Shown: positions 42,152 to 60,577 of the stretch, one piece after another
Numbering within the stretch: position 1 is the first letter of the stretch
Layout of the letters: every line of letters begins with the position of its first letter
NCBI GenBank assembly: GCA_016290905.1
Contig: JAEEVO010000004.1
Location: forward strand, 1-64,000
Direction of reading: 5' to 3'
DNA from: Lachnospiraceae bacterium
GTDB lineage: Bacteria > Bacillota > Clostridia > Lachnospirales > Lachnospiraceae
DNA: 64,000 nucleotides
Made by a program: the position numbers and the translations under genes
Notes under the pieces: model-generated
Databases searched by the model: none
The model's input: the letters and a program-made list of their open reading frames with translations, nothing else
Told to the model about the DNA's origin: nothing

Positions 42152-43633
42152 TTATTGTTCTACTATAACAATGGCTTCTCCGGTTGGTGTTCTTGCAATC
42201 TCTCCGTTATTGCCCACAGCTTCGCCGGGCTTCCTGATACCGTACTCTTTAAGTCCGTCTTCTATTTCCTTCTCCGACATTCCTATATCCGATACAACAG
42301 AGCTTCTCTCAAGGCTGTATATCTTTACCCTCTTGTTTCCCTTAGTACCTGAAACCTTATATACAAGCCTGCACAGACGGCCGTTGATACCGAAAGGCAG
42401 GTAATAGCTTCCGGCTTTATACTCGCCTATAGCCGTAGGATCCTCGGTATTCTTGATCTCTATAAGTCTCTTTTCTATCAGCTCAAAATCATGCCATGCG
42501 AAATTCTGCACGAGCTTTATGAAAAATACAGGTTCAAAATCAAAAACATCATCATATATCCTGGTCCAGCCTCTTGAAATATCATTCTCAAGGACACGGC
42601 TCAGCTGGTCTGCAAGTTCAACAGTCACCCTGTTCTTCTTATCCAGCTCCTCGATAGTCACATCGCATTGGCGTATCTCTTCCTGGACACGCTCGCGTTC
42701 AGCTTCCCACTCCATGATATAATGCTTTCTCTCTGCCTGATCCATCGTATCATTTGAACCGCCGCGCCTGCTGTTCCTTAAGTCCGCATTTATCTGTTCC
42801 TTCTGACGCTCCGACTCCTTCTTGCTTTCCTCGAGTTCCTTGATCCTGTCGTCGGTCGCATTCCTGTCGGCGTTGAGCGAATGCAGTACTCTCAGTCCTC
42901 TCTCAAAACGGCTTGCATCATTTTTCATCGTCTTCCTGATGGAAAGCTCGTCAAGCGATACTACAAACATTTCTCCGAGACATCTTCCCGAAAGTGAAAC
43001 TGTTTTAGCCAGCTTTTCGAAGGAAAGTCTCCTTCTGAAAAAGAACCAGATCAGAACCTCAACCACAAGACCGATCAATAGAATAACGACCGGAGAAATA
43101 TCTATTACAAACATAAGAACGATGTCTATGATAAAGAGCAATATCGCCGAGATCAGCCAGATATACGGCAGCCGCTTTACCGTATTCGGATTCCGGTGCC
43201 CGCACTGCCGTTTCAGCTTGTCGGCCTTTTCGGCAGGTGACATGAGCGGATAATCCTTGTTCCGGTACAGCCTGGATACCGCATTAAGCGAGCATACAGA
43301 AAGTCTGTCATCGCTGCCGCCCTTTATCAGAAGATAAATATCACGCAAAGCCTTGGCCATCTGTTTTCTCAAAATATTCAGAAGATGGTCTTCGTCTTCA
43401 TCCGACAGTTTTTTATAGATATTATCATATTCAAAGGGCATGCTGACCTGAACATACTCCCTTTTGAAGAGTTTCTTAAAGAAATTTACAAACTTCTTTA
43501 AGGCAACCTTCGCCATGATCAGAGGATTGTATGTTTTATATATCGCTGCAAGCTCTACAAGCTGCCGCTGGGGCGCTTTCCCCAGACCGTCTATAATATT
43601 TGCCATAACCCCGCTACCTCTTCCTTTAAACAA
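42152..43633 (-). CDS. Hypothetical membrane protein with coiled coil
   Basis: Two central TM segments, then a long Glu/Lys/Arg-rich coiled-coil region. Confidence 0.65.
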   Translation of the reverse strand: MFKGRGSGVMANIIDGLGKAPQRQLVELAAIYKTYNPLIMAKVALKKFVNFFKKLFKREYVQVSMPFEYDNIYKKLSDEDEDHLLNILRKQMAKALRDIYLLIKGGSDDRLSVCSLNAVSRLYRNKDYPLMSPAEKADKLKRQCGHRNPNTVKRLPYIWLISAILLFIIDIVLMFVIDISPVVILLIGLVVEVLIWFFFRRRLSFEKLAKTVSLSGRCLGEMFVVSLDELSIRKTMKNDASRFERGLRVLHSLNADRNATDDRIKELEESKKESERQKEQINADLRNSRRGGSNDTMDQAERKHYIMEWEAERERVQEEIRQCDVTIEELDKKNRVTVELADQLSRVLENDISRGWTRIYDDVFDFEPVFFIKLVQNFAWHDFELIEKRLIEIKNTEDPTAIGEYKAGSYYLPFGINGRLCRLVYKVSGTKGNKRVKIYSLERSSVVSDIGMSEKEIEDGLKEYGIRKPGEAVGNNGEIARTPTGEAIVIVEQ

Positions 43634-43688
43634 TAGTTAAGGAAATTATATAGCAGAATTTCTTTTTTGTCAAACGGTAACACGAAGA

Positions 43689-44831
43689 TTATAGATTGAT
43701 CACTAAAGCAGGGCGAATGCCCATGTCGTAGTAGGCATTGGTACCGATGGAGTCCACACTGCCACTTGAGCCCACATTGACGGCACTGATGTCACGGTAA
43801 CCGGGTGAGCGCAGCCACCACCAGAAAGACAGTTTATCCTCCTCAGTTTTTTCATAAATACTCGGATCAGCACCACGTGCCATAGCATAATCAGTAACAG
43901 CGCATTTACGTTTTTCATCACAAGTATCATAGTCTTTTGAAAATCCATAAGCTGTATTGATCATTTCAAGCTGGGACAGCAGGAATACCTTGTCCGCGGT
44001 ACTGTTTCCGCCCGGTGTTTTATACTCCGGATGATTTTTGTTTTTTATCGATGTTTCCTTTATCATCCCCTGCTCGGTTTCATTAAAGGCGTTCTCATAA
44101 AACCTTTTGTTCAGCCATTGCCTTAATGTACATGTTCCCCATGTAACCGTTCCCAGATCTTTGTTATATGGCATATAGTCAATAGCATATTTACTTAAAA
44201 CAACTATCTGTGACTTGGTTTTTTTAAGCACTATCCACTCTATAGGTTCCTGTCCGTTTATAAAGTTTCCGTCCTGCTCATATGCACCGAATTTAATTGT
44301 GTCACCTTTCTTTACTTTTGAAAAATCATACGATGACTTATATCCTGCGCCCAATTTCTTTGCTTCGATCGTTAAAGACTCAGGTTTACTGAACTCACTG
44401 TTTATTATGGAAGTATAATCTCCCAGATACTGTGCATTTACCTTGATCGTATATTTACCGGCGGGAAGAGTTTTACAATTTGCATTTATCAATTCCTCGG
44501 CTTTTATTGTTACTTTCCTTTTCTTTTTTCCTGATAAAAGTACATCCGCCACGTACTTATCTTCACAACTAAGATAATCATTGCTATACCATTCAGCCCC
44601 ATCATTATAAAGAGTATTATCTGCCTCAAAAGTCAGATAAACCATATAACTTTCTGCATTTTTTGTTTTCCCGATAGTTAATACTATACCTTTTTCATTC
44701 TTTGCGGCTTTTATAGAAATCTTGGGTGTTGCAACTTTTATCTCTTTTGCATCCGCCTGTACACTCCCAAACGGCCATAAAAGCAATACTGCTGTCAGCA
44801 TCAGAGCTAACACTTTCTTTGTAAATCTCAT
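43689..44831 (-). CDS. Secreted DUF6273-like domain protein
   Basis: Signal peptide; TWGTCTLRQWLNKRFYENAFNETEQGMI...FWWWLRSPGYR; related to 7851-10028. Confidence 0.72.
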   Translation of the reverse strand: MRFTKKVLALMLTAVLLLWPFGSVQADAKEIKVATPKISIKAAKNEKGIVLTIGKTKNAESYMVYLTFEADNTLYNDGAEWYSNDYLSCEDKYVADVLLSGKKKRKVTIKAEELINANCKTLPAGKYTIKVNAQYLGDYTSIINSEFSKPESLTIEAKKLGAGYKSSYDFSKVKKGDTIKFGAYEQDGNFINGQEPIEWIVLKKTKSQIVVLSKYAIDYMPYNKDLGTVTWGTCTLRQWLNKRFYENAFNETEQGMIKETSIKNKNHPEYKTPGGNSTADKVFLLSQLEMINTAYGFSKDYDTCDEKRKCAVTDYAMARGADPSIYEKTEEDKLSFWWWLRSPGYRDISAVNVGSSGSVDSIGTNAYYDMGIRPALVINL

Positions 44832-44916
44832 GTCTGCACCTCCTATATTTTTTCGTATTAATATTGTTTCTTACTTTGATTATATATGCATATCAAAATA
44901 ACGTCAAGAGTTTTCC

Positions 44917-44941
44917 AACGTAAAAATAAGCGAAAAGTAAC
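44917..44941 (-). promoter_or_regulatory. Candidate ECF-type promoter
   Basis: Minus strand GTTAC-N16-CGTT, upstream of 43689-44831. Confidence 0.45.
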
Positions 44942-44976
44942 TTTCCGCCAAGATCAGCAAGTATTCAAATAAACAA

Positions 44977-45005
44977 AGGGTGTCCGGACTTACCGCAACA
45001 CCCTC
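44977..45005 (-). terminator. Terminator copy (duplicate of 51743-51770)
   Basis: AGGGTGT...ACACCCT hairpin. Confidence 0.75.
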
Positions 45006-45024
45006 TTAATTCAATCTCTATGGC

Positions 45025-45085
45025 TTATGATGCGGACAGGTTAACAATCTTTGCCAGGTCAACCTTGCTGTCCGTAAACGTCAGC
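45025..45085 (-). pseudogene. 3'-end remnant of a paralogue of 51791-53035
   Basis: About 44959-45085 matches 51721-51851; encodes a tail ending VDLAKIVNLSAS*. Confidence 0.85.
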
Positions 45086-45129
45086 ACAACCTGCAAATCC
45101 GTAGAACTTTCACTTTTTGACTTTATACC

Positions 45130-47691
45130 CTATGATAAGAATGAGTCAAATATATCAACGGAAAGTTCATCTTTTTCCGGAACAATATCCTTTTCATCAT
45201 TTCCGATATTATCATAATTCTTAGGAAAGTTTCCGTCAATCGCAATTTTTATATTATTTCCCTTTAGATAAATAATATTATTTCCGGTATCTGCTTCAAA
45301 ATAATAGTTTCCGGAATCAAGCCGGTTTAAAACATCTGCAAACATTTTTCCCGAACTCATAGAATAACTATTGTCAGTTCGTAGTACATTTGCAATATGT
45401 ATACATCTTCCCTCATAAAAGAACGGAACATAATATAATCCGGATGTATTTCGGACAGATATAGGAACTCCGATTTCTATACCACTATCAATATTGTTGT
45501 CTAAGCCTACAACAATGATCAATTCCTCTTTCTTCCCAATAATGTATTCTTTTACATCACTATCGTTCCGACTATAAAAATATATGTTATCCTTCTTCTC
45601 TGATGTCATTAAATTGTTTACAATTTCTCTATAGATAGGGAGAACTGACAGGAAAGTATCCTCATCATATACTCCTAACTGCTCCGGTGAATATACTCCG
45701 GCAAGGACTTTCCCTCCGGTTATTTCCGTGTCAAGCGGGTAACGGCATGAATAATCTCCTCTTAGGAAGTACGTTCCTTCATCTCCGCCCTTCTTTAAGA
45801 AATACAGCCATTTATCCCCCTTGATCATAGGTGTCAGTTCGGAATAAGTGATAATCCTTTGATTTTCTTCATCTATGAAGTTTTCCTGCCTTATGGTTAT
45901 TGTATCAGACTCCGCACTACCCTTATATACCTTGTCAATTTTGAATGTGTTATGCGAAAAGCCCTTATACTCCTTATATCTGCAATCAGTGATGTCATAT
46001 TGTCTGGTTGTTTCTTTTATTGCATCATCTATAAAGCTACCGGAAACTACTAAATCCGAATCCTCAAAAAGAGTATTGTAATCATCATATGGATTAAAAT
46101 ACCAGTTGGTCAAGACATAGTACGGATCAACCTTATATACTGCGTATTCTTTTCCATTGACAGACATTGTCCTTCCTGTATCGTATGCTTCCTCAATCGG
46201 CATTTCCCGTGATTCCGGTTTTTCAGCGATATACATCCTTTCCTCCTGAGAAAGGCTGTACAATTCACACCAATGATCTATATAATACAGATAGTATTTC
46301 CCATCCTTATAGGCATACTTACACCCAAGAAACGGTCGGAAATTCGTCTCACCATTTTTCTCAGGCATCTTTCTGTCACTGACAGCAGAAGATATTTCTC
46401 CAACAACATACTCTGAAAAATCCTCATCCATATCTTTTATGACAATATAACAATCCCCGTCTATCAAAAGAACCGACGGCAAAGAATTTGCTGCCCACTC
46501 ATTATCTTCAGCTGCGGCATCTTCATATTTTTGCTTGTAATAGTCTAAATCGATATGTTCTTCTAATTCAAGAAGTTCCTTAAGCTTTTTCCCCTGTTCT
46601 TCTTCAATTTCAAATCTCAACATACTCCAATAAGGTTTTAAACAGGTATCTCCTACAAAACAAACTGTCTGTTCACCACTACGATCAGAATAGGTAAATT
46701 TCAGCAATAGATAAAGTGAATTCTGTGGAATCTGCCGGTCATCATAACCCTGTGTCAGGTTCAGCTCATCAAAAAAATCTTTAATAGCATTTATCCTGTC
46801 AATATCTGTAATAGAATACTCAAACTCTTCACGATCATCAGTTACTGTCAGCCCAACGATATCTCCTTCGGGTAACAATCTGTAAATTCCATCATCTACG
46901 CGAATATCATCCAATAAAATCTCTTCGTCCCAATACTTAAACGTCCGTCCATCGCTTTTAAAATAGGAACTCAAATAGTAATCCGCATAATCAATCGGTT
47001 TAATTGTAGTAATTTTGTCATAATCTTTTCCCGCGTCCCCTACAATCCAGCTTAAGTCATTATCGATCTTTCGAATTATATATAATCCCTCAGCCTTACC
47101 AGGAAAAGAGTCCCCATATCTTAACGTATTAAAAGGTTCACATTCAGATCCCTGCTGATAACTATAGGAAAAGCTTGAAATGGTTGTTACTTTAAACTCA
47201 TCATTATCTTCACAATTCTTTATGCCTTCTGAAATCTTAAGGCTAAATGTTGAAATATAGTGTGTATAGTGTCCTTCTTCAACTTTGACCATAGAAATAT
47301 CACTGATACTTCCTATACCAACTATACTGGTTGTTTTTTTCAATGCGTATATATAATCATAAGGCGGGGCAGAACCGGAACCCAGACTATTTAAGGGCCA
47401 TTCAGAGTTATCTATTACCTGTGCCCCTTTTATCGATTTTAAAGTGCGGTACCTTCCGGTTTCGTCCATCTCGATTTCGTCTTGAACTGGAGCGGTGACA
47501 ACCGGAGTGACCGTATTTATACCAGGTTCTGAAACTGCACTTGTTATCACTGCCTCATCCGCCGTCTTTTCAAAAGAAGCATCATTTTTCTTTTTAGAGA
47601 AAAATACAGCACAGGCGACAGCTGCCACAGACAAAGCCAGCACCACTATAATCGAGATCACACTCATAGGTAAGCCTTTTTTATTATCCAT
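45130..47691 (-). CDS. Membrane-anchored surface protein (paralogue A)
   Basis: N-terminal TM (VISIIVVLALSVAAVACAVFF); first ~400 aa highly similar to 56767-59085. Confidence 0.75.
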   Translation of the reverse strand: MDNKKGLPMSVISIIVVLALSVAAVACAVFFSKKKNDASFEKTADEAVITSAVSEPGINTVTPVVTAPVQDEIEMDETGRYRTLKSIKGAQVIDNSEWPLNSLGSGSAPPYDYIYALKKTTSIVGIGSISDISMVKVEEGHYTHYISTFSLKISEGIKNCEDNDEFKVTTISSFSYSYQQGSECEPFNTLRYGDSFPGKAEGLYIIRKIDNDLSWIVGDAGKDYDKITTIKPIDYADYYLSSYFKSDGRTFKYWDEEILLDDIRVDDGIYRLLPEGDIVGLTVTDDREEFEYSITDIDRINAIKDFFDELNLTQGYDDRQIPQNSLYLLLKFTYSDRSGEQTVCFVGDTCLKPYWSMLRFEIEEEQGKKLKELLELEEHIDLDYYKQKYEDAAAEDNEWAANSLPSVLLIDGDCYIVIKDMDEDFSEYVVGEISSAVSDRKMPEKNGETNFRPFLGCKYAYKDGKYYLYYIDHWCELYSLSQEERMYIAEKPESREMPIEEAYDTGRTMSVNGKEYAVYKVDPYYVLTNWYFNPYDDYNTLFEDSDLVVSGSFIDDAIKETTRQYDITDCRYKEYKGFSHNTFKIDKVYKGSAESDTITIRQENFIDEENQRIITYSELTPMIKGDKWLYFLKKGGDEGTYFLRGDYSCRYPLDTEITGGKVLAGVYSPEQLGVYDEDTFLSVLPIYREIVNNLMTSEKKDNIYFYSRNDSDVKEYIIGKKEELIIVVGLDNNIDSGIEIGVPISVRNTSGLYYVPFFYEGRCIHIANVLRTDNSYSMSSGKMFADVLNRLDSGNYYFEADTGNNIIYLKGNNIKIAIDGNFPKNYDNIGNDEKDIVPEKDELSVDIFDSFLS

Positions 47692-47773
47692 TTGAGCTTC
47701 CTCCTATACTTTAAAACCAAATTCTCCGATAATTCAGATTATACCATCAGTTCCGGACTCTATCAATATATAA

Positions 47774-47799
47774 GACGAAAAAAATATGTAAAAGGTAAC
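47774..47799 (-). promoter_or_regulatory. Candidate ECF-type promoter
   Basis: Minus strand GGTTAC-N17-CGTCTTATATATTGATAGAG, upstream of 45130-47691. Confidence 0.65.
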
Positions 47800-47837
47800 C
47801 TTCCACCAAGATTAGCAAATACTCCTCATTAACTTAT

Positions 47838-48060
47838 GTTTCTTACAGTTATAAAATGCATATTTCTGAAGCTTCTTACAAGTTTTTGGAAGGATTACTT
47901 CCTTGAGTTTTGCCGATTCATCATAATTATCATAATAGGAATTTACAAGGTACTTTGGTATTTTTTTAATTTTTGTTTCACTTAGATCAAGTCTTGTTAT
48001 ATTCCATCCTATACTCTTTGATTCTATTGAAGTAACAGTATCGGGAAGTTTATAGTTCCT
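47838..48060 (-). pseudogene. 3' fragment of a paralogue of 54815-56002
   Basis: About 220 bp nearly identical to 54932-55151 (for example AAATGCATATTTCTGAAGCTTCTTACAAGTTTTTGG). Confidence 0.9.
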
Positions 48061-48077
48061 AGAAATCTAAACCCGGA

Positions 48078-49346
48078 TCATTTCCCTACATCCATGACCG
48101 TCCCGATAAAGAAAGGTATTTTACTGTATGTGTCAATCAGCATAAATAAAAAAGGGCGGTCGAGATATACCTCTGGCGGTTCGGTCGGATTTAATGAAAC
48201 TCCGTTTTCCATATTCACTACCGTTGCTGCACCGGCCTTTGTACCTTGTTCGTCAACACTGATATATGTTTTATGTAACACGCTGCTGATAAACGGCCGG
48301 TTGTCATCCTCTTCACCTGTCTGCATGCCGGAAAAATCTGCCTTATCCGGGTCAAACGCATCTGTTATCCCAAGTTTCTTCAACGTTTCAGACATTTCAA
48401 TCGTATAATCAAATGAGAACTTAGGGATTTTTGTATAAATTTTCTCATTTTTAGCCGAAGAAATAAGATCCGCCAGGTTCTTTCCGTCTAAAGCTGCGAC
48501 ATAGTCCGATATGCTGATACCTGCTTTCGGCAAGAGTGCCACAAAGGCATACTTTCCACCTTTATAGGACTTTATAAAACCGGTCGCATTTTCACCTTCT
48601 ATATATTCGTATTCTGAAGAGCTCATGAATTCAACTTGCTTTTCGGTCCCATCTTCTTTGGTAAAAATTCCCTCTCTTACTGCCATATCCATATAAGCTT
48701 TCGTCCAGACAGCATCAAATGACAGTGCGTTAACAAGAAACATAAGATCATCTTTCTCTATTTCATCCAGTATCTTAGGGATCATACCGTCAGTCTTTTT
48801 ATTTACCCATTGATTTATCTCATTTAAAGCAGAATCATCAAACTCTCTTCTGTAAACATCTGCGCCATAAAAATCCGCGTTCTTCTGCAAGAAATCTTTG
48901 CTTACGTTTTTAAACCTCTCAGAGATCCAAATGGAATCTGCTAGCTTCAGATTACAGTATTGGCCTTTTTTAGTCATATAATCTATGTAATTATACATAT
49001 ACTGATCAAGCGTTTCAATGGGTACTCCGAACGCACTTTCAAACTGTGCCAGGGTTTCTTTACCGGCTCCGTTTGCGGTCATACCAAGTGCCGACATTAC
49101 GGACAGGGGCGAGATCAGCTGGTTTTCACCTTCTTTATAGCTGCTCTTAAACAGTTTTACTGCGAACTCGTTCAAAGCAGGAGCATACTCTTCTGCATGA
49201 ACGAGATCCTGTACACCTTCCTGTCTCTTTACATCTTCCATAAGGTCCGCAGCATTAGCCCCGGCAGTACATCCGGCAAGCAGTGAGCAGCACAAAATTA
49301 GTATCAAACATACGTGAGTTATCCTTCTCATTGGCACCCTCCTCAT
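48078..49346 (-). CDS. Lipoprotein serpin, predicted inhibitory
   Basis: Lipobox CSLLAGC; LISPLSVMSALGMTANGA; hinge DEQGTKAGAATVV; C-terminal DRPFLFMLID...PFFIGTV. Confidence 0.92.
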   Translation of the reverse strand: MRRVPMRRITHVCLILILCCSLLAGCTAGANAADLMEDVKRQEGVQDLVHAEEYAPALNEFAVKLFKSSYKEGENQLISPLSVMSALGMTANGAGKETLAQFESAFGVPIETLDQYMYNYIDYMTKKGQYCNLKLADSIWISERFKNVSKDFLQKNADFYGADVYRREFDDSALNEINQWVNKKTDGMIPKILDEIEKDDLMFLVNALSFDAVWTKAYMDMAVREGIFTKEDGTEKQVEFMSSSEYEYIEGENATGFIKSYKGGKYAFVALLPKAGISISDYVAALDGKNLADLISSAKNEKIYTKIPKFSFDYTIEMSETLKKLGITDAFDPDKADFSGMQTGEEDDNRPFISSVLHKTYISVDEQGTKAGAATVVNMENGVSLNPTEPPEVYLDRPFLFMLIDTYSKIPFFIGTVMDVGK

Positions 49347-49369
49347 AGTCTATCTTTCCCTCATTCACT

Positions 49370-49411
49370 GCAAAGCATCTTTAATAATTGTTCTTTATCC
49401 ACATCTTATGA
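49370..49411 (-). pseudogene. 3'-end remnant of a DUF4367-type anti-sigma gene
   Basis: Encodes DVDKEQLLKMLCSE*, compare VDKETLIKMLCGE* at the end of 60578-61270. Confidence 0.75.
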
Positions 49412-49462
49412 AACAAAACTATAAATCTATTTTTCATCCTTGCTACTCATATAACACAGTGT

Positions 49463-50980
49463 TCATGCAGGATTATTAACTATACCTGTAAACAACGGTA
49501 CATTTGTCGATGAAACTATCGAGAAAAGGAACGGTCTGTCCAGAGTATAGTAAAAATCCTCATCAGGTTCGATTGCACCCCACGCATCAATAGTCTGTAT
49601 TGCAACGGCACGGCACCCCTCTTCATCTATCATGACTCTTACACCCTGCTTGGCACTTTGTAAATATACATTATCCTTTTCGATCAAAGGAGAAAAATCA
49701 GCCAAAGAAGGATCAAATGCATCGGTTACTCCCAAAGCCTTTAATGCACCCTCAAGTTCCATACTTGACGATATATCAAACTTAGGTATGGAAATGTGGG
49801 TTCTTTTTATGTCATAATACAGGGTTTTTCCCGATAAGCATGCCAAAGCCTCACTATCCCGCAGAAGTTCTTCGCAGGTTACTCCCTCGTCAGGAAGAAT
49901 GGTTATCATCTTACAGCCGTTATCCATCATAAACGAAACAGAAGAAAACTTCTTTCCAAAATTATACGAGGTTTTTTCAGTATGCATAAAATCGCATTTC
50001 ACATCCCCATCCGGCGTATGGAATACATCCTCATTCGTTTTAGATTCATTAAATTTCTCCCTCCATGCTCCTGAGAAATTTAACGTTGAAGCTAATGTAA
50101 TGATCATTGCCGGACTCATTTTGATCTTTGAAACATAATCCTTTAACAATCCATCCGTATGATCGTTTAACCATTTTCGAAGTCTTTCGACATATTCCCC
50201 TGATGCCGGATCTCCGCCGAAAACCGAAGCATAATAGTTCTTTGCCAGTAATTCTATTACTGATTTTTTATAGGTTTCCGCTACATTAAGCCATAATGAA
50301 GCTGATGGGATGACTTTCGATTTTCCATTATCCATATAGCTTAATTCCCAGATGTTTTTTGCAGTCTGTCTTATAGTTTCAAGATCCTCAAGTCCAAGTA
50401 AAGCCGTTATCTGCCGCTGTGAATTGCCTTCCGTTATCTCAGCCGACATGGCCAGTGACATATAAAGGCTGATTGGTGAATATATCACATTTTTATCCGC
50501 ATCTGCAAGAACGGTTGCCGCAGTCTTTTCAAAAAAAGTGTATGTGCTTTCAAGTTCACTGTTCGACAGACGTCCTGCATTGTATTGAACCGTATCAGGG
50601 TATGTTGCAGTAGCTAGAAGGAATTGTGTATCTGTATCTGCTTCTTTCAAAACAACGCCCTCTTTACCATCCTGAACAAAACCGTTTTCAGATACGTTAT
50701 CTTTCATATTTGTAGGGTGATTTCCCGTATACGTCCGGTCATTACCGGAATTCATATGAATTTCATTTGCCTGTCTTGTGACAAAGAAAACAATGGCAAT
50801 AACGGCCGCAACAGAAGCAAACAAAGCGGCAACTCTAAATATTTTCTTTGAAGAAACAGGTTTGCTGTCCGTTTTTTCATTTCTGTCTTTTTCTGTTGTT
50901 CGTACATCCTCCGATATGTCCGGAACCAGTTCTTCATCAACTTCACCTATTGCGTACAGAAGCATTTCGTTGTTCTTCAT
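49463..50980 (-). CDS. Putative anti-sigma factor with extracytoplasmic serpin domain
   Basis: N-terminal LLYAIGEVDEELVPDISEDV, TM IFRVAALFASVAAVIAIVFFV, then a full serpin domain (IYSPISLYMSLAMSAE...DRPFLFSIVSSTNVPLFTGIV); start overlaps the sigma gene stop. Confidence 0.88.
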   Translation of the reverse strand: MKNNEMLLYAIGEVDEELVPDISEDVRTTEKDRNEKTDSKPVSSKKIFRVAALFASVAAVIAIVFFVTRQANEIHMNSGNDRTYTGNHPTNMKDNVSENGFVQDGKEGVVLKEADTDTQFLLATATYPDTVQYNAGRLSNSELESTYTFFEKTAATVLADADKNVIYSPISLYMSLAMSAEITEGNSQRQITALLGLEDLETIRQTAKNIWELSYMDNGKSKVIPSASLWLNVAETYKKSVIELLAKNYYASVFGGDPASGEYVERLRKWLNDHTDGLLKDYVSKIKMSPAMIITLASTLNFSGAWREKFNESKTNEDVFHTPDGDVKCDFMHTEKTSYNFGKKFSSVSFMMDNGCKMITILPDEGVTCEELLRDSEALACLSGKTLYYDIKRTHISIPKFDISSSMELEGALKALGVTDAFDPSLADFSPLIEKDNVYLQSAKQGVRVMIDEEGCRAVAIQTIDAWGAIEPDEDFYYTLDRPFLFSIVSSTNVPLFTGIVNNPA

Positions 50981-51528
50981 ATGTTAACGCCCTCTTTCTC
51001 CAAGTATTTCTTCAACTTGTCGCGTATCCTCTTAAGCGTCATCTTGACCGTCCCGACAGAAGCAGCCGTCTTCTCGGATATTTCTCCTACAGGCATCATA
51101 TACCAATATCTGTACATGAATATCCGTCTGTTTTTTTCCGGCAGTTCGCGCAGAAACCGATTGATCAGATCCTTCAGGACGACACCCTCCTCTATAAAGC
51201 TTCCCTTGCTTACACATTCTTCAAGTTCTTCCAGACATAAAGCTATCTCCCCGCCATTGTTCTTCAGGCTTTTATTCTGCCTAAAGCGGTCAATAGCCAG
51301 ATTCCTTGTTATTTTACCTAAAAAAAGTGACAGCTTCCCCGGCTTCTGCGGCGGTATGGCATTCCATGCCCTAAGCCATGTATCATTAACGCACTCCTCG
51401 GAATCTTCAGGAGAACTAAGTATATTTACAGCTATGCTCCTGCAATAGCTCCCATACTTCTCCTGGCTCATCTTTATAGCCGTCTCGTCTCTCTCCCAGT
51501 ACATTTCTACTATGTCTTTATCATTCAT
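50977..51528 (-). CDS. ECF-family RNA polymerase sigma factor
   Basis: Region 2 (SPEDSEECVNDTWLRAWNAIPP...LGKITRNLAIDRFRQ) and region 4 (LPEKNRRIFMYRYWYMMPVGEISEKTAASVGTVKMTLKRIRDKLKKYL). Confidence 0.93.
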   Translation of the reverse strand: MNDKDIVEMYWERDETAIKMSQEKYGSYCRSIAVNILSSPEDSEECVNDTWLRAWNAIPPQKPGKLSLFLGKITRNLAIDRFRQNKSLKNNGGEIALCLEELEECVSKGSFIEEGVVLKDLINRFLRELPEKNRRIFMYRYWYMMPVGEISEKTAASVGTVKMTLKRIRDKLKKYLEKEGVNI

Positions 51529-51561
51529 TCCATTAATCCTGTCAATGTCATTAAACTCATA

Positions 51562-51630
51562 TCATTCTGAACAAAGTGAAGAATCATTAAGCTTTATGTA
51601 ATACGATTCTTCGCTAACGTTACAGGATGA
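51562..51630. repeat. Imperfect inverted repeat in the sigma-gene leader
   Basis: TCATTCTG..GAAGAATC...GATTCTTC..CAGGATGA. Confidence 0.7.
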
Positions 51631-51681
51631 CAAATAGAACTAAACTGATTAACATCGGTTCTATACTCTCTAAATATATAA

Positions 51682-51707
51682 GACGAAAAAAACATCAAAA
51701 AAGTAAC
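51682..51707 (-). promoter_or_regulatory. Candidate ECF-type promoter of the sigma/serpin operon
   Basis: Minus strand GGTTAC-N17-CGTCTTATATATT; same geometry as 47774-47799. Confidence 0.65.
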
Positions 51708-51742
51708 CTCTCAGATTAATAAGTATTCAAATAAATAAACAA

Positions 51743-51770
51743 AGGGTGTTCGGAATTACCGCAACACCCT
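51743..51770 (-). terminator. Terminator of 51791-53035
   Basis: AGGGTGTT...AACACCCT then T-rich on the minus strand. Confidence 0.8.
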
Positions 51771-51790
51771 CTTAATTCAATCTCTATGGC

Positions 51791-53035
51791 TTATGATGCG
51801 GACAGGTTAACCATCTTCGCCAGGTCAACCTTGCTGTCCGTAAACGTCAGCAGGTAGAATACGCCATCCTTTATTTTCATCTCGCTGCTTATCCAGAAAT
51901 CCGAAGCCATAGCTTCTCTCTCAATGTAACACTGATACCGTATGTTTCCATTGCTATCTGTGCATACTATCCATGGATCATCAACTTGAATAACAAAACA
52001 GAAATACTTGCCATCGGTAGCTATCAGTTTGAAATAGTCCTCTTCCCCGTATTTGACACCCTGTATATCAAATAACTTCCTGTATTTCCAGTCTTTTCCA
52101 ATCCTGTATACAGCCCACTGTGAATCCGCCCACTTTTCAAATAAGAGTCTCAAGCTTTCCGGATCATCATAGTCATATGTACCATCATCGTAAACTATTG
52201 CCCACCAGTCAGTCGCATATATGTTTTCTCCATCTTTTCCGATTTTGCCCCTTCCTGTCGGGATAATCTTTCCAAGACTTATAAATTTCTCTGTCACAGT
52301 ATCATATTTGTATACCAGCTGACCTGACCACGCATATAATTCACCCTCGATCTCACCGAATGAAAATTCGCTGTTTTTCCCCTTAGGGTTTACCAGTGTC
52401 TTTTTCTCACCGGTCTCAAGATCCATCACGCAGATCTTGTGGTCAAAATTCCAATACTGCCATGACTCTGAATCATTCCCATTAACAGCCTTGCTATAAA
52501 ACATCTTTCCGTCAAGTACATAAGCTGTTTCATGTGTAAGGCTTGAACCCGTCATATTGCCTTTATTATTGAATATCTTTTTAAGCCCGCTACCATCATA
52601 GTTTACTTCATAAAGATATTTCTTTCCCCAGAAATAAATCTTCTCTTCATCAGTACTCAAGACATAGTATACGCCCCTGGAAACAAGCGTTGACTTGCTT
52701 TTCCCTATCTCCATGCGGTACAAGCTGTTCGACCAGGGTTTCCAGTAATAAATATAATTGCCTTCAATAAAGAATTTCCTGACACCCTTTTTATATACCT
52801 TGGGAGCCTTTCCGCTTTCTGCCATATTTTTATCATAGCAGTATAATGTGCCATCTGTAAAATACAGTACCCCATCGTGTTCAATCCCGTTCACCCCGGC
52901 TGCACACTGCATCTCCAAGCTAAGCTTTGATACATCTACTTTATCTGATGCTGCTTTTGCTTCAACGCTGTACACAAGCGGTAAAAATATCAGAAGAATT
53001 AAAAAGAAAAGTGCTTTTCTAAGTGTTTTACCCAT
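51791..53035 (-). CDS. Secreted DUF5050/beta-propeller-like protein
   Basis: Signal peptide; repeated GVLYFTDGTLYCYDK, IYYWKPWSNSLYRMEI-type blades. Confidence 0.7.
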   Translation of the reverse strand: MGKTLRKALFFLILLIFLPLVYSVEAKAASDKVDVSKLSLEMQCAAGVNGIEHDGVLYFTDGTLYCYDKNMAESGKAPKVYKKGVRKFFIEGNYIYYWKPWSNSLYRMEIGKSKSTLVSRGVYYVLSTDEEKIYFWGKKYLYEVNYDGSGLKKIFNNKGNMTGSSLTHETAYVLDGKMFYSKAVNGNDSESWQYWNFDHKICVMDLETGEKKTLVNPKGKNSEFSFGEIEGELYAWSGQLVYKYDTVTEKFISLGKIIPTGRGKIGKDGENIYATDWWAIVYDDGTYDYDDPESLRLLFEKWADSQWAVYRIGKDWKYRKLFDIQGVKYGEEDYFKLIATDGKYFCFVIQVDDPWIVCTDSNGNIRYQCYIEREAMASDFWISSEMKIKDGVFYLLTFTDSKVDLAKMVNLSAS

Positions 53036-53111
53036 AGTAGAACCTCCTCATGTAATTGCAGAGAATATCAGGGAATTTTCTCAAAGATGCCATATAGCCC
53101 CGACTATACGA

Positions 53112-53140
53112 ATTATAACATCTTGCAAACCAAATATCAA
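53112..53140 (-). promoter_or_regulatory. sigma-A promoter
   Basis: TTGATA-N17-TATAAT on the minus strand; near-copy at 56725-56753. Confidence 0.65.
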
Positions 53141-53203
53141 TAGACTATCTCTGCTATCCCTTTCAAGTTCATGAATACAATTTCATCTGCTTCAGAAATT
53201 GTA

Positions 53204-54589
53204 TCACTTTATCTCCTTCTTACTCTCGTTCTCTTTTGTAATAGCTTCCTCCAGCGGAATGATCTTAACACCTGCAACTCGTCCACCACCATCATGCTCA
53301 ATCACATATACTTTACCATCACGAATTTTAGCTGTAACGGTGCTTTCATCAGCATCATAACCATCTTGAATATCATCTACTTTGTCAAGATATCCTAACG
53401 AAAACAGATAATTTCCTTCTCTATCAATAAATAAAGGGAAAAAATACTCATCCCCGAAACGAATGCACATGTAATCCTCATCTGCATAATCCAGATACAT
53501 AATGAAATCTTCATTTATTATATATCCTTGGTCAACACGGATATTAACGCCACTGAAGATGGGTATTAGTTTCCAATCAGCACCTACCCTGTAGATATCT
53601 ACAGTATTGATACACTGATCAACTCGAACCGAAGCGCTTTCCTTAAGTTCGTCAGGAATCTCGGTTATTATCTTGTACAGATACAGATATGTTCCGTCAT
53701 TCCCGAGAATATTATAAGTATGCTTTCCTCCAAAAATTTTATCGTTACTCCAATATGTTGGAAATTCAATATTCTTAACTTTTTTAAACTTTTCTTTTTT
53801 CTCGTTATATCGATAAATATCTGTTCCAGAAACGGCAAACAGTTCGCCTTCAATCTCATAGAAATTAAATTCCGGGTTGGCACCTTTTGGGTTCAGCACA
53901 GTTTTTCGTCCTGTTCCGTCAAGATTTTTGGAGCAAATCTTGTAATCACATGTTTTTCCAGAATAAGGATATGATGCATATGTACCATTTTCACTTTTAA
54001 ATCCACATGAATAAAAGAATCTGTCTTTGAAAAAGCATACCGACCGCCCACGGTTATACAGTCCATAGTTTCCACTGTATTTAGCAAGTAGTATACGGCT
54101 GCCATCTGTTTCTGAAACACTATAAAATTTATTATTATCCCACAGATAAAAATATCCATCTGTGTGAAAATCGGTAAGGCAAACGCCGTATTTTTCCTTT
54201 GACAGCTGTGTGGTTTTACCATCGCTTAAGTTTATGCGGTATACTGCATTGCCATAGCTTTTCGTATAAAAGATGGCATCATTGTCAATCCTGAAAGATT
54301 GTGCATTGTTGACGACCAATGTCGGTTCCTTACCTGTTTTTGATTGTTCAGCGGTATATTTATATAACTTTGCATCACTTATAAAATAAAGATCCCCATC
54401 ATACTCAACGCCGGTAAACACGGCTCCGGCCTGCATTTTCTCTCTAAGTCCTGATATATCAATAGTGACATACTTATCAGTTTCGCCTGTTACAGCCTCA
54501 GCTTTAACAGCATATCCTCCGTCCAACAGTGCACATACAACCAGACACAGTATAAATGCACACATAAATAACAATGATTTTCTAGACAC
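53204..54589 (-). CDS. Secreted DUF5050/beta-propeller-like protein
   Basis: Signal peptide; blades DGDLYFISDAKLYKYT, AIFYTKSYGNAVYRINLSDGKTTQLS; paralogue of 51791-53035. Confidence 0.7.
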   Translation of the reverse strand: MSRKSLLFMCAFILCLVVCALLDGGYAVKAEAVTGETDKYVTIDISGLREKMQAGAVFTGVEYDGDLYFISDAKLYKYTAEQSKTGKEPTLVVNNAQSFRIDNDAIFYTKSYGNAVYRINLSDGKTTQLSKEKYGVCLTDFHTDGYFYLWDNNKFYSVSETDGSRILLAKYSGNYGLYNRGRSVCFFKDRFFYSCGFKSENGTYASYPYSGKTCDYKICSKNLDGTGRKTVLNPKGANPEFNFYEIEGELFAVSGTDIYRYNEKKEKFKKVKNIEFPTYWSNDKIFGGKHTYNILGNDGTYLYLYKIITEIPDELKESASVRVDQCINTVDIYRVGADWKLIPIFSGVNIRVDQGYIINEDFIMYLDYADEDYMCIRFGDEYFFPLFIDREGNYLFSLGYLDKVDDIQDGYDADESTVTAKIRDGKVYVIEHDGGGRVAGVKIIPLEEAITKENESKKEIK

Positions 54590-54790
54590 CTTAATACACC
54601 TCCCTTATTTCAGTGACAACAAATCTATACAAAAGTACAAATATTTTATATATTATAATTATGTCAATCATATGACATAATCGGAAATTACTTTTGAATA
54701 CTCCGTATTATAAATTGGTAGCAATAATACAAATTTGTAAAAAAAGTATCAAAATGGTATCAATACCCCTTTTTTTTGTAAACCTAGAAA

Positions 54791-54866
54791 GTCAAAGTCA
54801 CCTCGAAAACGCTTTCAGCGTTTCCTCGGTAACAAAACGATGCTCCGCATCTTCTGTTTTGTTATA
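54791..54866. repeat. 76-bp REP-like element, copy identical to 10045-10120
   Basis: Base-by-base identity over 76 bp. Confidence 0.92.
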
Positions 54867-56002
54867 TTACACTTCTTACGTAGTGCACGATACCCTATGT
54901 TTACATTTTCAAACATGCCGATATTCTTAAGTTTCTTACAGTTATAAAATGCATATTTCTGAAGCTTCTTACAAGTTTTTGGAAGGATTACTTCCTTGAG
55001 TTTTGCCGATTCATCATAATTATCATAATTGGAATTTACAAGGTACTTTGGTATTTTTTTAATTTTTGTTTCACTTAGATCAAGTCTTGTTATATTCCAT
55101 CCTATACTCTTTGATTCTATTGAAGTTATGGTATTGGGAAGCTTCAGTTCTACCGGTTCATCAAATCGAACATTACAGAATGCATAATATTCTATCTTTG
55201 TTACCTTGTATTTTTCACCTTTATAGTATACTATTGAAGGCTGCGTATAGCATGTCCCTTTTATCCCCTTCTTTTTCAAAGCATATGAACATATAAGGGA
55301 CACAGTCTTTTTATCAGGATTCAATATCCTGTAATATGAATCCTCAAATATAAAAGCCTCCGGATTAACACTGCTGTCACCTATTTTAGCAATAGGAATT
55401 CCTGTATAGCTCCGTATTCCCCTATCATTATCCAAGAATATACACCGTAGCTTTCCGGCAAATAATGCTTTATATTCTTCAAGATATTCCTCAGGGACAT
55501 ATATGATACTCTCAATTGCGGCGTCATTCACATCTATGCTTTCTATCTGTTCAAAAGCATCCGGCGAACACTTAAAAACGAACTTAACACCATGGATTTC
55601 TTTTACTTTCTCTGATTCCGGATTTCTTTCCAGATCAAAAGTAAAATGTTTTACTTTAATAATATTAGTCGTTGCAGGTATTTCTATTTCGCTAATCCAC
55701 TCCGAATTCAAAGTACCATTTGGGGATTCTATAGCTGTTACGGTATAAAGTGTATTTTCATACATGACTGTTTCAGGTATCACGATCTTTACAGAGTTGA
55801 CCAGATTTATATCATCAAATTCATTTTCCCATCCAATGACCGAACAGATGTTTTCTTCGCCGGTATTCTTTATCTCAAAAGTAATAATCCCGGTCTCATC
55901 GGTAAATGTATCACCTACCTGTACTGCCTGTATCTTATGGCTACTTGTCAAAGCAATAAACACCAGTGTAAATATAGCAGATAAAATCAATGTCTTACTC
56001 AT
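54815..56002 (-). CDS. Secreted leucine-rich/BspA-like protein whose C-terminus lies inside the REP element
   Basis: Signal peptide; IRFDEPVELKLPNTITSIE..., LKEVILPKTCKKLQKYAFYNCKKLKNI; last residues ITKQKMRSIVLLPRKR* are REP-encoded. Confidence 0.75.
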   Translation of the reverse strand: MSKTLILSAIFTLVFIALTSSHKIQAVQVGDTFTDETGIITFEIKNTGEENICSVIGWENEFDDINLVNSVKIVIPETVMYENTLYTVTAIESPNGTLNSEWISEIEIPATTNIIKVKHFTFDLERNPESEKVKEIHGVKFVFKCSPDAFEQIESIDVNDAAIESIIYVPEEYLEEYKALFAGKLRCIFLDNDRGIRSYTGIPIAKIGDSSVNPEAFIFEDSYYRILNPDKKTVSLICSYALKKKGIKGTCYTQPSIVYYKGEKYKVTKIEYYAFCNVRFDEPVELKLPNTITSIESKSIGWNITRLDLSETKIKKIPKYLVNSNYDNYDESAKLKEVILPKTCKKLQKYAFYNCKKLKNIGMFENVNIGYRALRKKCNITKQKMRSIVLLPRKR

Positions 56003-56022
56003 AAAGATTCACCCATTCCTTT

Positions 56023-56310
56023 TTATATTTGATACTTATATATCTTAAATCTGAAACTTGATCCAGCCTTTCTAAACATCATGTACATATAATCATTGGA
56101 AGATTCTGTATATATTTTTATACCTTCTATTTCAGCATTCTTTATAAAATGATTTGATGGAGCTGTTGTATTTTTTACAATATACTGACATTGAAGAGCA
56201 TCGCCATAATTAGGGTCATTAATGTTCTTTTTATAGTTTTCATCATAGCTAATCTTCCTCCATTTTTCAAGCAAAATTAAACTGAATTCAGGTATTTTTT
56301 TGTTTAACAA
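56023..56310 (-). CDS. Hypothetical protein
   Basis: Open 95-codon ORF between flanking co-directional genes. Confidence 0.4.
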   Translation of the reverse strand: MLNKKIPEFSLILLEKWRKISYDENYKKNINDPNYGDALQCQYIVKNTTAPSNHFIKNAEIEGIKIYTESSNDYMYMMFRKAGSSFRFKIYKYQI

Positions 56311-56366
56311 TATCGATATGCAGTATTGACTAGAAATTTATCTTGACATTTGACTAAGATTAATCC

Positions 56367-56401
56367 AAAAAAGGTCAGTTTCCTTCACTACTGACCTTTT
56401 C
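56367..56401 (-). terminator. Terminator
   Basis: AAAAGGTCAGT-ttccttc-ACTACTGACCTTTT. Confidence 0.75.
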
Positions 56402-56409
56402 CTCTTTCT

Positions 56410-56706
56410 TTATGGCTCATCTTCAGTTGCTTTTTGAATCATTATCTTACGATAATCTTCCTTTTCTTCCTGATTTATCAAATCACTTTTTTCTATCATT
56501 TTATCTATATTGTCCTTGATATATTTTTCCTTTAATCCATCCTTAGTATAAACAGTATTTTCTACATCTTCCTTTAGGTCTTGGAAAACAACCGTTTCAT
56601 CGTTTGAATCCATCAAAGTTTTATTATAAATAAAAATTGACAATATTACTACCGTAAGTATTCCAAATAAAGCTATACCAAGCCAAAAATAGTGTTTTTT
56701 CGACAT
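56410..56706 (-). CDS. Small single-TM protein
   Basis: FWLGIALFGILTVVILSIFIY TM; promoter at 56725-56753. Confidence 0.55.
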   Translation of the reverse strand: MSKKHYFWLGIALFGILTVVILSIFIYNKTLMDSNDETVVFQDLKEDVENTVYTKDGLKEKYIKDNIDKMIEKSDLINQEEKEDYRKIMIQKATEDEP

Positions 56707-56724
56707 AAATGATCACCTTATCCT

Positions 56725-56753
56725 CATATAACATCTTGCAAACCAAATATCAA
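56725..56753 (-). promoter_or_regulatory. sigma-A-like promoter, duplicate of 53112-53140
   Basis: TTGATA-N17-TATATG; flanking ~37 bp nearly identical to 53114-53151. Confidence 0.55.
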
Positions 56754-56766
56754 TAAACTATCTCAC

Positions 56767-59085
56767 CTAAACCAGATTTATTTTTTGACATTTGTCAATC
56801 AACGTAAATTCCCCGTTAACAGTATCATATTTGTAATTGTCATGAATAACGTATACACAGTCTCCTACTACAGCCGCATGCATCCAGCATTCATCCGTAT
56901 ATCCAGCTATCTGCAGATTCAGAAGCAGTTTGCCGCCCATATCGGTCACGATTACCCTGTCCACTTCCTCACCATTGGCTCCATAACTTAAAAGATAACC
57001 GTTCTTTATAGAAAAATCTCCTACACTAGTCCACTTTATATCGGAATATCTTCCAAAGGTTTCCCATTTTCCATTTCTGTCCTCTCTGAGGATTATTAAG
57101 CCTCCGCCACTCTCATACTCTGAAATATCCATATTGTACGAATAACCGTCAGTCTGTCTTTTATCATATTGCGGATATTTATCGGCAAGTCCAAGCTTCA
57201 CAAACTTATTTCCGTTATATTGATATAACATGTTGTGTTCATATGGAATATCTGCCATCTTTTGGCTATAGTCAGTATAAGCGATCAATAAATCCTGATC
57301 ACGGATAACTAAATCTGCCTCTGCTATGCCTTCCAGTTTTTTCATAAGCTTTTTTCCGGTTCCGTCTGGGTTGCAACTATAAACTTTAGTTCCTTTCACA
57401 TAGCCTTCCTTTGAAGTAAAATAAGTCTTGAAATAAATCTTACCCTCAAACACGGTAACCATAGTATCCGGTTCTTTATATCCTGAAGAAACATTTGAAG
57501 CTATCCGTCTTTTTCCTGAACCGTCCGTACCTATAACATATAGTCTGTTCTTACCTTTAGTCTCATCAGCAAAATATATTCTGTTCTCATATTTCCGAAC
57601 ATATCCACTCCAGCCATTTTTCGTTAGCCTCATCTTTTTTCCTGTATCAAGGTTTACAGCATAAAGTCTGTTATCGGATAAACTGTTATAGAACATATAA
57701 TTATCGATAAAATTCGGAGTGAAAACATCGTTTTTATATTTTTTCAATTCATAATTTTTTATCCCTATCCTGTAAACATCCCTGTCCGATGCTGCGCTCT
57801 TATAGAAATACATGTAATCTCCATATACATATCCGTAAACAGCCATATAAGCTGTCCATGTCTCATCTAATCCGCAGTTCGTTATAACTTCATCTTTAAT
57901 GGTTTCAGGATCATATATGTCTTTTGACCTATAAAAGTCCATATCGACATGTTCTTCTAATTCCAGAAGTTCCTTAAGCTTTTTCCCCTGTTCTTCTTCT
58001 ATAACAAATCTATAATTACTTGAATAAGGTTTCAGACAAGTATCTCCTGCAAAGCAAACTATATGTTCATTACCTCTGTCAGAATAAGAAAATTTTAGCC
58101 ATAGATAAAGTGAATTCTGCGGAATCTGCCATTCAGCATAACCCGGTGTCAGATTCAATTCATCAAAAAATTCTTTTATAGCATTTAACCTGTCAATATC
58201 TGTAATAGAATACTCAAATTCTTCACGATCATTAGTTACTGTCAGCCCAACGATATCTCCTTCAGGTAACAATCTGTAAATTCCATCATCTACGCGGATG
58301 TCATCCAGTAAAATCTCTTCATCACAATACTTAAACGTCCGTCCATCGCTTTTAAAATAAGATTTCAAACAGTAATCCGCGTAATCAATCGGTTTAATTG
58401 TAGCAACTTTATCATAATCTTTTTCCGCATCCCCCACAATCCAGCTTAAGTCATTATCTATCTTTCGAATTATATATAATCCTTCAGCCTTACCAGGAAA
58501 AGAGTCACCGTATCTTATTGAATTAAACGGTGTACACCCGGCTCCCTGCAGATAACTATAGGAAAAACTTGAAATAGTTATCACTTTAAATTCATCCTCG
58601 TCCTTACAATTCTTTATGCCTTCTGAAATTTTAAGACTAAATGTTGAAATATAGTATGTATAGTGTCCTTCCTCAACTTTAACCATAGAAATATCACTGA
58701 TACTTCCTATACCAACGATACTTGTGGTTTTTTTCAAAGAATACATATAATCATAAGGCGAAGTATCACCGGAATCCTGACCATTTAACGGCCATTTGGA
58801 ATTATCTATTACCTCTGCCCCTTTTATCGATTTTAAAGTGCGGTACCTTCCGGTTTCATCCATCTCGATTTCGTCTTGAACCGGAGCGGTGACAACCGGA
58901 GTGACCGTATTTATACCAGGTTCTGAAACTGCACTTGTTATTACTGCCTCATCCGCCGTCTTTTCCAAAGAATCATCATTTTTCTTTTTAGAGAAAAATA
59001 CAGCACATGCGACAGCTGCCACAGACAAAGCCAGCACCAATATAATCGAAATTGTATTCATAGGTAAGCCTTTTTTATTATCCAT
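56767..59085 (-). CDS. Membrane-anchored surface protein (paralogue B) with DUF5050-like C-terminal half
   Basis: First ~400 aa highly similar to 45130-47691; C-terminal half has propeller-like YMYFYKSAASDRDVYRIGI, RLYAVNLDTGKKMRLTKNG. Confidence 0.75.
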   Translation of the reverse strand: MDNKKGLPMNTISIILVLALSVAAVACAVFFSKKKNDDSLEKTADEAVITSAVSEPGINTVTPVVTAPVQDEIEMDETGRYRTLKSIKGAEVIDNSKWPLNGQDSGDTSPYDYMYSLKKTTSIVGIGSISDISMVKVEEGHYTYYISTFSLKISEGIKNCKDEDEFKVITISSFSYSYLQGAGCTPFNSIRYGDSFPGKAEGLYIIRKIDNDLSWIVGDAEKDYDKVATIKPIDYADYCLKSYFKSDGRTFKYCDEEILLDDIRVDDGIYRLLPEGDIVGLTVTNDREEFEYSITDIDRLNAIKEFFDELNLTPGYAEWQIPQNSLYLWLKFSYSDRGNEHIVCFAGDTCLKPYSSNYRFVIEEEQGKKLKELLELEEHVDMDFYRSKDIYDPETIKDEVITNCGLDETWTAYMAVYGYVYGDYMYFYKSAASDRDVYRIGIKNYELKKYKNDVFTPNFIDNYMFYNSLSDNRLYAVNLDTGKKMRLTKNGWSGYVRKYENRIYFADETKGKNRLYVIGTDGSGKRRIASNVSSGYKEPDTMVTVFEGKIYFKTYFTSKEGYVKGTKVYSCNPDGTGKKLMKKLEGIAEADLVIRDQDLLIAYTDYSQKMADIPYEHNMLYQYNGNKFVKLGLADKYPQYDKRQTDGYSYNMDISEYESGGGLIILREDRNGKWETFGRYSDIKWTSVGDFSIKNGYLLSYGANGEEVDRVIVTDMGGKLLLNLQIAGYTDECWMHAAVVGDCVYVIHDNYKYDTVNGEFTLIDKCQKINLV

Positions 59086-59165
59086 TTGAGCTCCCTCCCA
59101 TACTTTAAAACTAAGTTCTCCGATAATTCAGATTATACCACCCGTTCAGGACTCTATCAATATAT

Positions 59166-59190
59166 ATGACAAAAAAACAGGTAAAAAGTA
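59166..59190 (-). promoter_or_regulatory. Candidate ECF-type promoter (diverged -10)
   Basis: Minus strand GTTAC-N16-TGTCATATATATTGATAGAG, upstream of 56767-59085. Confidence 0.5.
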
Positions 59191-59237
59191 ACAAAACAGG
59201 ATGACCGTCTATCAGAGTATCGTATAACTGTCCTTTA

Positions 59238-59307
59238 TAATGTATTCTTTTATATCACTATCGTTCCGACTATAAAAATATATGTTATCCTTCTTCTCCG
59301 ATGTCAA
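59238..59307 (-). pseudogene. Internal fragment of a paralogue of 45130-47691
   Basis: LLTSEKKDNIYFYSRNDSDIKEYII, compare MTSEKKDNIYFYSRNDSDVKEYII; DNA nearly identical to 45539-45608. Confidence 0.85.
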
Positions 59308-59561
59308 AAGAATTTGTTCATTATTCTCCGTCTCATCTGCGGGAGGGGTTATATAAGAGGCCGGCTTACCCTTAGCCCCATCATCAAGAATAAAACTACT
59401 TTTTACAGTCTCACTATTTCTTAACGAAATTATTATCACCAGCCTTATTATACTAGCTATGAATCTTATTACACAAGGTACAAAGATTCTTCACTACACT
59501 CAGAATGAAACTAACATAATCGCGTTAAAACATTTTCTCCTTTCTATATTTTGTAAAATCA

Positions 59562-60023
59562 TCAGTCTTCAAAAATCCGATTCTCCACATCCTTAATCTG
59601 ATCATTTGTTACCAAGACAGCAGTACGGCTTGAAACAGGACTCCCCCATGATATTACCGATACCTTTTCTTTGGGTATCTTATATGTAGCGAGAATCAGT
59701 TTCATATCTTCCGGACTCACACCTTCACCAAGTCCCATCTCAATTTTTTCTCTTGTATTATACACATCTTTATCATATTGATATAGTATTCCAGAAAGCA
59801 AGCCACATTGTATGGAATCCCTTTCATGTTGCCATACGCACACGGTAAGCCCATCATCAGAGTTTAAATTAAACCATTGAAAATTTTTTGCTTTTAATCG
59901 TTCAATTTTATCATTGTTTTCTTTCACAATAATCATTTTCCGGATAAATAATCCCATAAAAACAATTACCATACATGTCCCAAATATAATAACCACTCTG
60001 ATTATAAATATCTTTTTGTGCAT
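59562..60023 (-). CDS. Hypothetical single-TM protein
   Basis: GAGGAG RBS before MHKKIF; TM VVIIFGTCMVIVFMGLFI. Confidence 0.55.
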   Translation of the reverse strand: MHKKIFIIRVVIIFGTCMVIVFMGLFIRKMIIVKENNDKIERLKAKNFQWFNLNSDDGLTVCVWQHERDSIQCGLLSGILYQYDKDVYNTREKIEMGLGEGVSPEDMKLILATYKIPKEKVSVISWGSPVSSRTAVLVTNDQIKDVENRIFED

Positions 60024-60099
60024 ATGCTTTCTCCTCACTTTTTTCAAGAAAATAAACACAACTACTCTTTTTTAAGCTTTATACCATAAATGATAATAG

Positions 60100-60541
60100 T
60101 TAATATGTCACTGTATTTCCGTCAACATTGAACGATTCAGCTCCAAATCCCGGCGCCTCTGCATATACAGACATCCAAACTCTGTATGTTCCGTGAGACA
60201 CGCCGGTTGTATCTGTGCCCTGTAGTTTTTTCCCACCGGTGTGATTCCATGAAGCATAACTCTGCCAAGATCCACTTACCAGTTTTTCAAGATATACTGT
60301 TATGCTTGTTGACGTATTTTCAAATTTTCCTTTTACATTATATGATATTGATGCACATCCGGATGATGATATTGACAAATTACAGAAAGCATCCTCCACT
60401 ACAACATAAGGTTGATCCTCTTCAATCTCTATAGGTTCTTCAATTTCATTACCAGATACGCTTATGTTTGTATATATCATAAAAATTGCACAAATACATA
60501 TGACATATCGACTTAATCTTATTAAAAACTCTTTTTCATAA
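60100..60541 (-). pseudogene. Secreted DUF6147-like protein with frameshift in the signal peptide
   Basis: GGAAAGGAG RBS then ATGAAAAAGAGTTTTTAA; adding one A to the A5 tract restores MKKEFLIRLSRYVICICAIFMIYTNISVSGNEIEEP, which is continuous with the annotated ORF. Confidence 0.6.
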
Positions 60542-60577
60542 GAATCTCCTTTCCACTAAGTGATCTATTTCCCTTTT

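Follow-up and report, generated by a model that had tools for sequence, protein, structure and literature searches.

A putative autogenous promoter of a serpin-linked ECF sigma factor, and related boxes near neighbouring surface-protein genes

The window, by which we mean the whole 64 kb stretch of DNA analysed here, contains a gene for an ECF sigma factor that overlaps the gene for a probable anti-sigma factor by 4 nt (Table 1). The sigma factor is placed in the ECF group by its domains: its 183 aa hold regions 2 and 4 only, and region 2.4 contains the sequence DRFR (D80-R83). The product of the overlapping gene, 49463-50980, has a short conserved N-terminus and one hydrophobic segment (judged by eye), to which a predicted extracytoplasmic serpin domain is fused. 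Judged by this sequence and by the partners of related sigma factors, it fits the layout of a membrane anti-sigma factor encoded beside its sigma. The partners found across the sigma's clade share a short N-terminus (MKNxExLLDVIGxxDExLIP) and a hydrophobic segment and carry variable outer domains; the outer domain is a serpin in nine of 28, and the rest match no Pfam family.

A second serpin gene, 48078-49346, lies 116 nt from the gene upstream of it and probably belongs to the sigma operon. In inhibitory serpins the hinge (P17-P9) is close to ExGTEAAAA (PMC8233489). The hinge of the free lipoprotein serpin, read from the translation as EQGTKAGAA, fits this pattern well; that of the fused serpin, EEGCRAVAI, departs from it. 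Between the two serpin genes, at 49361-49438, is a 78-nt remnant of the 3' end of the DUF4367 partner of a second ECF sigma factor. This second sigma and its partner stand at 60578-61883 with ACAAC...CGTCCC upstream, a different -35.

Three genes for surface or secreted proteins lie in the same region. In front of each stands a sigma-A promoter that agrees with the consensus at 11 of 12 positions, 7-9 nt 3' of the proposed ECF box, so that none of them need depend on the ECF sigma factor. Unlike these three genes, the sigma gene has no sigma-A promoter in front. This absence and the terminator-like hairpin at 51728-51768 were both counted in favour of site 1 as the promoter of the sigma operon. 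The hairpin repeat in the sigma leader, downstream of site 1, is about 75 nt long and has about 40 matches in the window's own genome (an assembly of 2.94 Mb, 81% complete); from the -10 to the sigma ATG is 153 nt in the window, compared with mostly 24-50 nt in relatives. A search of Rfam identified no RNA family between 42 and 62 kb.

Table 1. Positions of the genes, promoters and hairpins discussed in the text.
Feature	Position	Strand	Description
ECF sigma factor gene	50977..51528	-	183 aa; Sigma70_r2, Sigma70_r4_2; NCBIfam sigma70-ECF above cutoff
Probable anti-sigma factor	49463..50980	-	505 aa; Serpin 4.1e-56; N-terminus common to clade members' partners
Second serpin	48078..49346	-	Lipoprotein-like signal LLAGC; Serpin 1.4e-87
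Terminator-like hairpin, T-rich tail	51728..51768	-	-11.7 kcal/mol, z -3.5; after gene 51791-53035, just 5' of site 1
Interspersed hairpin repeat	51560..51640	-	Between site 1 and sigma start codon; -21.9 kcal/mol, z -3.4
Surface/secreted protein, mosaic	45130..47691	-	853 aa; N-terminal hydrophobic segment
Surface/secreted protein	56767..59085	-	772 aa; DUF5050; 5' half 89% identical in DNA to that of 45130-47691
Secreted protein	43689..44831	-	380 aa; DUF6273; signal-peptide-like start
Sigma-A promoter of 45130-47691	47738..47766	-	TTGATA-N17-TATAAT
Sigma-A promoter of 56767-59085	59132..59160	-	TTGATA-N17-TATAAT
Sigma-A promoter of 43689-44831	44879..44907	-	TTGACG-N17-TATAAT
Site 1	51682..51707	-	GTTAC-N17-CGTC then TTATATATT; putative autogenous ECF promoter of sigma operon; 23.8 bits
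Site 2	47774..47799	-	GTTAC-N17-CGTC then TTATATATT; before 45130-47691; 26.7 bits, top of window
Site 3	59168..59192	-	GTTAC-N16-TGTC then ATATATATT; before 56767-59085; weak, 15.2 bits
Claimed site 4	44917..44941	-	GTTAC-N16-CGTT; before 43689-44831; 9.4 bits, background

The original prediction placed a shared ECF-type promoter before the sigma gene and the three surface-protein genes and took these genes to be the local regulon of the sigma factor. It passed over the sigma-A promoters directly 3' of sites 2, 3 and 4, the duplications that link the sites, and the terminator 5' of the sigma operon. The sequence GGTTAC-N17-CGTCTTATATATT given for sites 1 and 2 is exact in letters and position on the minus strand. 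These two are the only GTTAC-N15-18-CGTC strings in the 64 kb; from base composition, about 0.5 occurrences of GTTAC-N17-CGTC and 8e-6 of GTTAC-N17-CGTCTTATATATT would be expected per window. Site 3 is a real string, GTTAC-N16-TGTCATATATATT on the minus strand, found two bases away from the 59166-59190 first given for it. Compared with the stronger sites, either it has lost the C of the -10 or its spacer is one base shorter. The string proposed as site 4 also exists, as GTTAC-N16-CGTTGG; the final C of CGTC is missing and there is no TATA past the -10.

How far do these sites stand above background? We scored them with a weight matrix trained on 25 sites from relatives, with the window left out. 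Across the window this matrix ranks site 2 first (26.7 bits) and site 1 second (23.8 bits); its maximum over 20 shuffled windows is 17.8 bits. Shuffled sequence yields 0.3 matches of at least 15 bits per 64 kb, the level of site 3 (15.2 bits), and 2.6 matches of at least 10 bits, a level above that of site 4 (9.4 bits). Sites 1 and 2 are a real motif, far above chance. Site 4 is no better than chance.

The motif recurs with the sigma factor itself, relatives of which are found in many rumen and gut Clostridia. In the nearest relatives the consensus 5' of the sigma gene is GTTACYT-N15-CGTCTATA followed by GTGAAAG, and 24-136 nt separate the end of the motif from the start codon. The -10 in the window has one extra T relative to this consensus and is not followed by GTGAAAG. 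The pattern G[TA][TA]AC-N16/17-[CT]GT[CAT] occurs 5' of the sigma gene in 29 of the 31 other clade members (spacer N17 in 27, N16 in two), and the remaining two carry near variants (GTCAC in L062; an ending of CGAC in L079). Controls gave 2/31 on the reverse strand, 0/31 with the reversed pattern and 32/1015 in other 250-nt blocks. Because the motif accompanies the sigma gene so regularly, the putative autogenous promoter is well supported; on this footprint, and on a match to a measured promoter discussed below, the proposal that the sigma gene lies under its own promoter appears sound.

A tree of 103 sigma factors places the window protein inside the GTTAC clade with support of 99/80, and motif types group together on it. 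In other clades the -35 is TGTAAGAT or GAAAC; these include serpin-linked sigma factors of the same genus and the one on contig C12 of the window's own genome. All 32 members of the GTTAC clade have K at residue 162 (region 4.2); S takes this position in 10 of the 11 GTAAGAT-type sigmas, and the six GAAAC-type sigmas have K as well. In the DXXR motif of region 2.4, D is present in 31 and R in 32 of the 32 clade members. One clade sequence, L060, comes from a contig of a same-genus genome (apparently G010:C12) and is nested among Ruminococcus sequences, a placement that may reflect horizontal transfer or contamination of the bin.

Genome-wide, the pattern GTTACN{15,18}YGTCWTATA, which was picked after the sites had been seen and so measures rarity (the advance test being the relatives' matrix), occurs at five places in the window's own genome, compared with none for the reversed-pattern control. 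Three of the five are sites 1-3; the other two fall within genes of the opposite strand. Upstream of genes, this looser pattern matches at the three window sites only. We set aside an exact match at C53:10593, within a gene running the other way, and GTTAC...CGTT strings at 54808, 21671 and 10062, which belong to an interspersed repeat that mimics the pattern. This repeat, with an inverted core GTTACCGAGGAAACGCTGAAAGCGTTTTCGAGGTGAC, is found at 54790-54867, 21653-21698 and 10045-10121 and also turns up among the own-genome pattern matches. A genome-wide search for the regulon with a calibrated model puts sites 2 and 1 at the head, among matches at chance level (E 0.03 and 0.22, respectively). 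The same model gave no match in 299 genomes of the family, which is uninformative, since the threshold is one that the window's own genome does not pass either.

In 775 kb of relatives' loci there is no site of at least 19 bits outside the fronts of family sigma genes; the matrix was trained on those relatives' promoters, so that only this absence of other matches is informative. Across 15 genomes of the genus, a strict pattern has one site before a clade sigma (G010:C12), and its other matches are no commoner than those of the reversed pattern. Within these loci and genomes, neighbouring genes under this promoter seem to be peculiar to the window's own genome.

The history of the boxes bears on their meaning. 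The segment 46529-47799 matches 57922-59192 at 89%, both copies stopping at the G of GTTAC; 47742-47801 matches 51650-51709 (82%); and 44951-45086 matches 51713-51852 (92%), stopping just short of the box. In part, then, the boxes are shared by descent and are not independent evidence. Since sites 2-4 are kin to site 1 or to each other, their presence alone is no proof of selection. Two things weaken the claim of a shared regulon: the location of the sites in or beside duplicated segments, and the strong sigma-A promoter of each surface-protein gene. The surface-gene cluster at 42000-62000 is itself a mosaic, in which the 3' ends of other genes of the locus stop 10-45 nt 5' of sites 2, 3 and 4; besides the pair that begins at 44951 and 51713, 47833-48051 corresponds to 54926-55144 and 45539-45608 to 59237-59306.

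It is possible, if rather unlikely, that the sigma factor controls its own operon only, sites 2-4 being passive remains of duplication and the surface-protein genes being served by sigma-A alone. Such an account would explain why the duplicated blocks extend to the sites, why the sigma-A promoters there are near consensus, why relatives have no second site nearby and why sites 3 and 4 are degraded. It does not sit well with site 2, which outscores the sigma's own site, or with the alignment of sites 1 and 2 over 60 nt, in which all 11 mismatches fall outside the 15 motif positions (P about 0.03). Divergence between sites 2 and 3 is roughly equal within the box and across the remaining duplicated block, so that selection on site 3 is not visible.

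From these sequence comparisons, site 2 is likely to be functional beside the housekeeping promoter, and control of 45130-47691 by the sigma factor is plausible; site 2 scores above the sigma gene's own site. Control of 56767-59085 through site 3 appears doubtful, and control of 43689-44831 is not supported.

Could another ECF sigma factor of the same cell read the sites, for instance the one encoded at 61314-61883 or a paralog on contig C12 or C152? The promoter of the C12 paralog does have the same -10, CGTCTTATAT, but its -35 is TGTAAGAT and the region 4.2 residues of the protein differ. There is no GTTAC box upstream of 61314-61883, and among the sigma factors of this genome on the tree the window sigma alone falls in the GTTAC clade. 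We consider such cross-reading very improbable. Finally, we reject the idea that the segments of GTTAC plus T-run are weak intrinsic terminators of upstream genes. A scan does place hairpins resembling terminators at sites 2 and 4, but it marks none at sites 1 and 3, and the fold at site 2 is a weak one (-5.8 kcal/mol, z -1.7). The region has 9 terminator-like matches compared with 8.9 in shuffles, and relatives conserve GTTAC and CGTC and no stem.

The reading we prefer, with a probability of roughly 0.7, is that site 1 is an autoregulated promoter, that the serpin-bearing membrane protein holds the sigma factor, and that release drives the operon and adds to the output of 45130-47691, perhaps also of 56767-59085. 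The anti-sigma factor, with its serpin domain outside the cell, would sequester the sigma through its N-terminus, by analogy with Tt-TolB, and would let it go when the anti-sigma is lost, as in RsiV (PMC5014341). The freed sigma would guide RNA polymerase onto boxes of the form GTTACYT-N15-CGTCT(T)ATA. Expression of the sigma, the serpin anti-sigma and very likely the lipoprotein serpin would rise. Beside its housekeeping promoter, 45130-47691 would gain an inducible start, and 56767-59085, which likewise has a housekeeping promoter, may gain a weak one. The additional boxes would have been carried along with duplicated pieces of the locus. A more speculative extension, which we think improbable as a whole, is that proteases attack the serpin of the anti-sigma and so set the sigma free; the cell would sense proteolysis outside and respond by making more serpin and changing its surface proteins, and copying of the sigma's promoter to neighbours would have widened the response. 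The serpin as protease sensor is a hypothesis.

These observations provide a promoter consensus, derived from genomes, for an apparently unstudied sigma clade of rumen and gut Clostridia; they link it to region 4.2 residues and tie it to a measured promoter. They also suggest a route, duplication, by which a promoter box may reach neighbouring genes, and point to a serpin-bearing anti-sigma factor whose signal can be tested directly. In the literature as far as we could consult it, we found no paper joining serpin, ECF sigma factor and anti-sigma, and none linking a serpin to an anti-sigma factor. The promoter type is already known; what is less usual is an anti-sigma factor that bears a serpin.

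Among the closest known systems are the TGTAAGAT-type sigma/serpin pairs of the genus, whose sigma factors are 45-48% identical to that of the window, are followed by a serpin-bearing membrane protein and have GTCTTATA as -10. They differ in the -35 (TGTAAGAT) and in region 4.2, and in the window's own genome their promoter has a single site, before the sigma on contig C12. The C12 pair (L192, sigma at 3865-4413) has the promoter TGTAAGAT-N15-CGTCTTATA once in the genome. The C12 and window pairs may be read as sigma/serpin systems that are insulated from each other within a single cell.

The measured promoter is that of Tt-RpoE1 of Thermoanaerobacter tengcongensis, which reads tGTTACN16CGTC and activates its own gene; the D of its DXXR motif reads the -12 G, and the N-terminal 39 residues of the downstream membrane protein bind it (PMC3397946). 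The predicted AAC-type -35 with CGTC fits this promoter, GTTAC and CGTC being exact at sites 1 and 2 (site 3 has GTTAC and GTC; site 4 is without the final C). The spacer at sites 1 and 2 is 17, unlike the N16 of Tt-RpoE1, which makes the promoters the same in kind and not identical. As in Tt-RpoE1/Tt-TolB, the window sigma has DXXR and a partner directly downstream with a short N-terminus and one transmembrane segment; the outer domain is TolB-like in Tt-TolB and a serpin here. The likeness is one of promoter, DXXR and partner layout. A model for the serpin is offered by SigV/RsiV of Bacillus subtilis, in which the outer part of the membrane anti-sigma RsiV binds and inhibits a hostile enzyme, lysozyme (PMC5014341). 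The partner of the serpin, if it has one, would by contrast be a protease, and the analogy is one of mechanism only.
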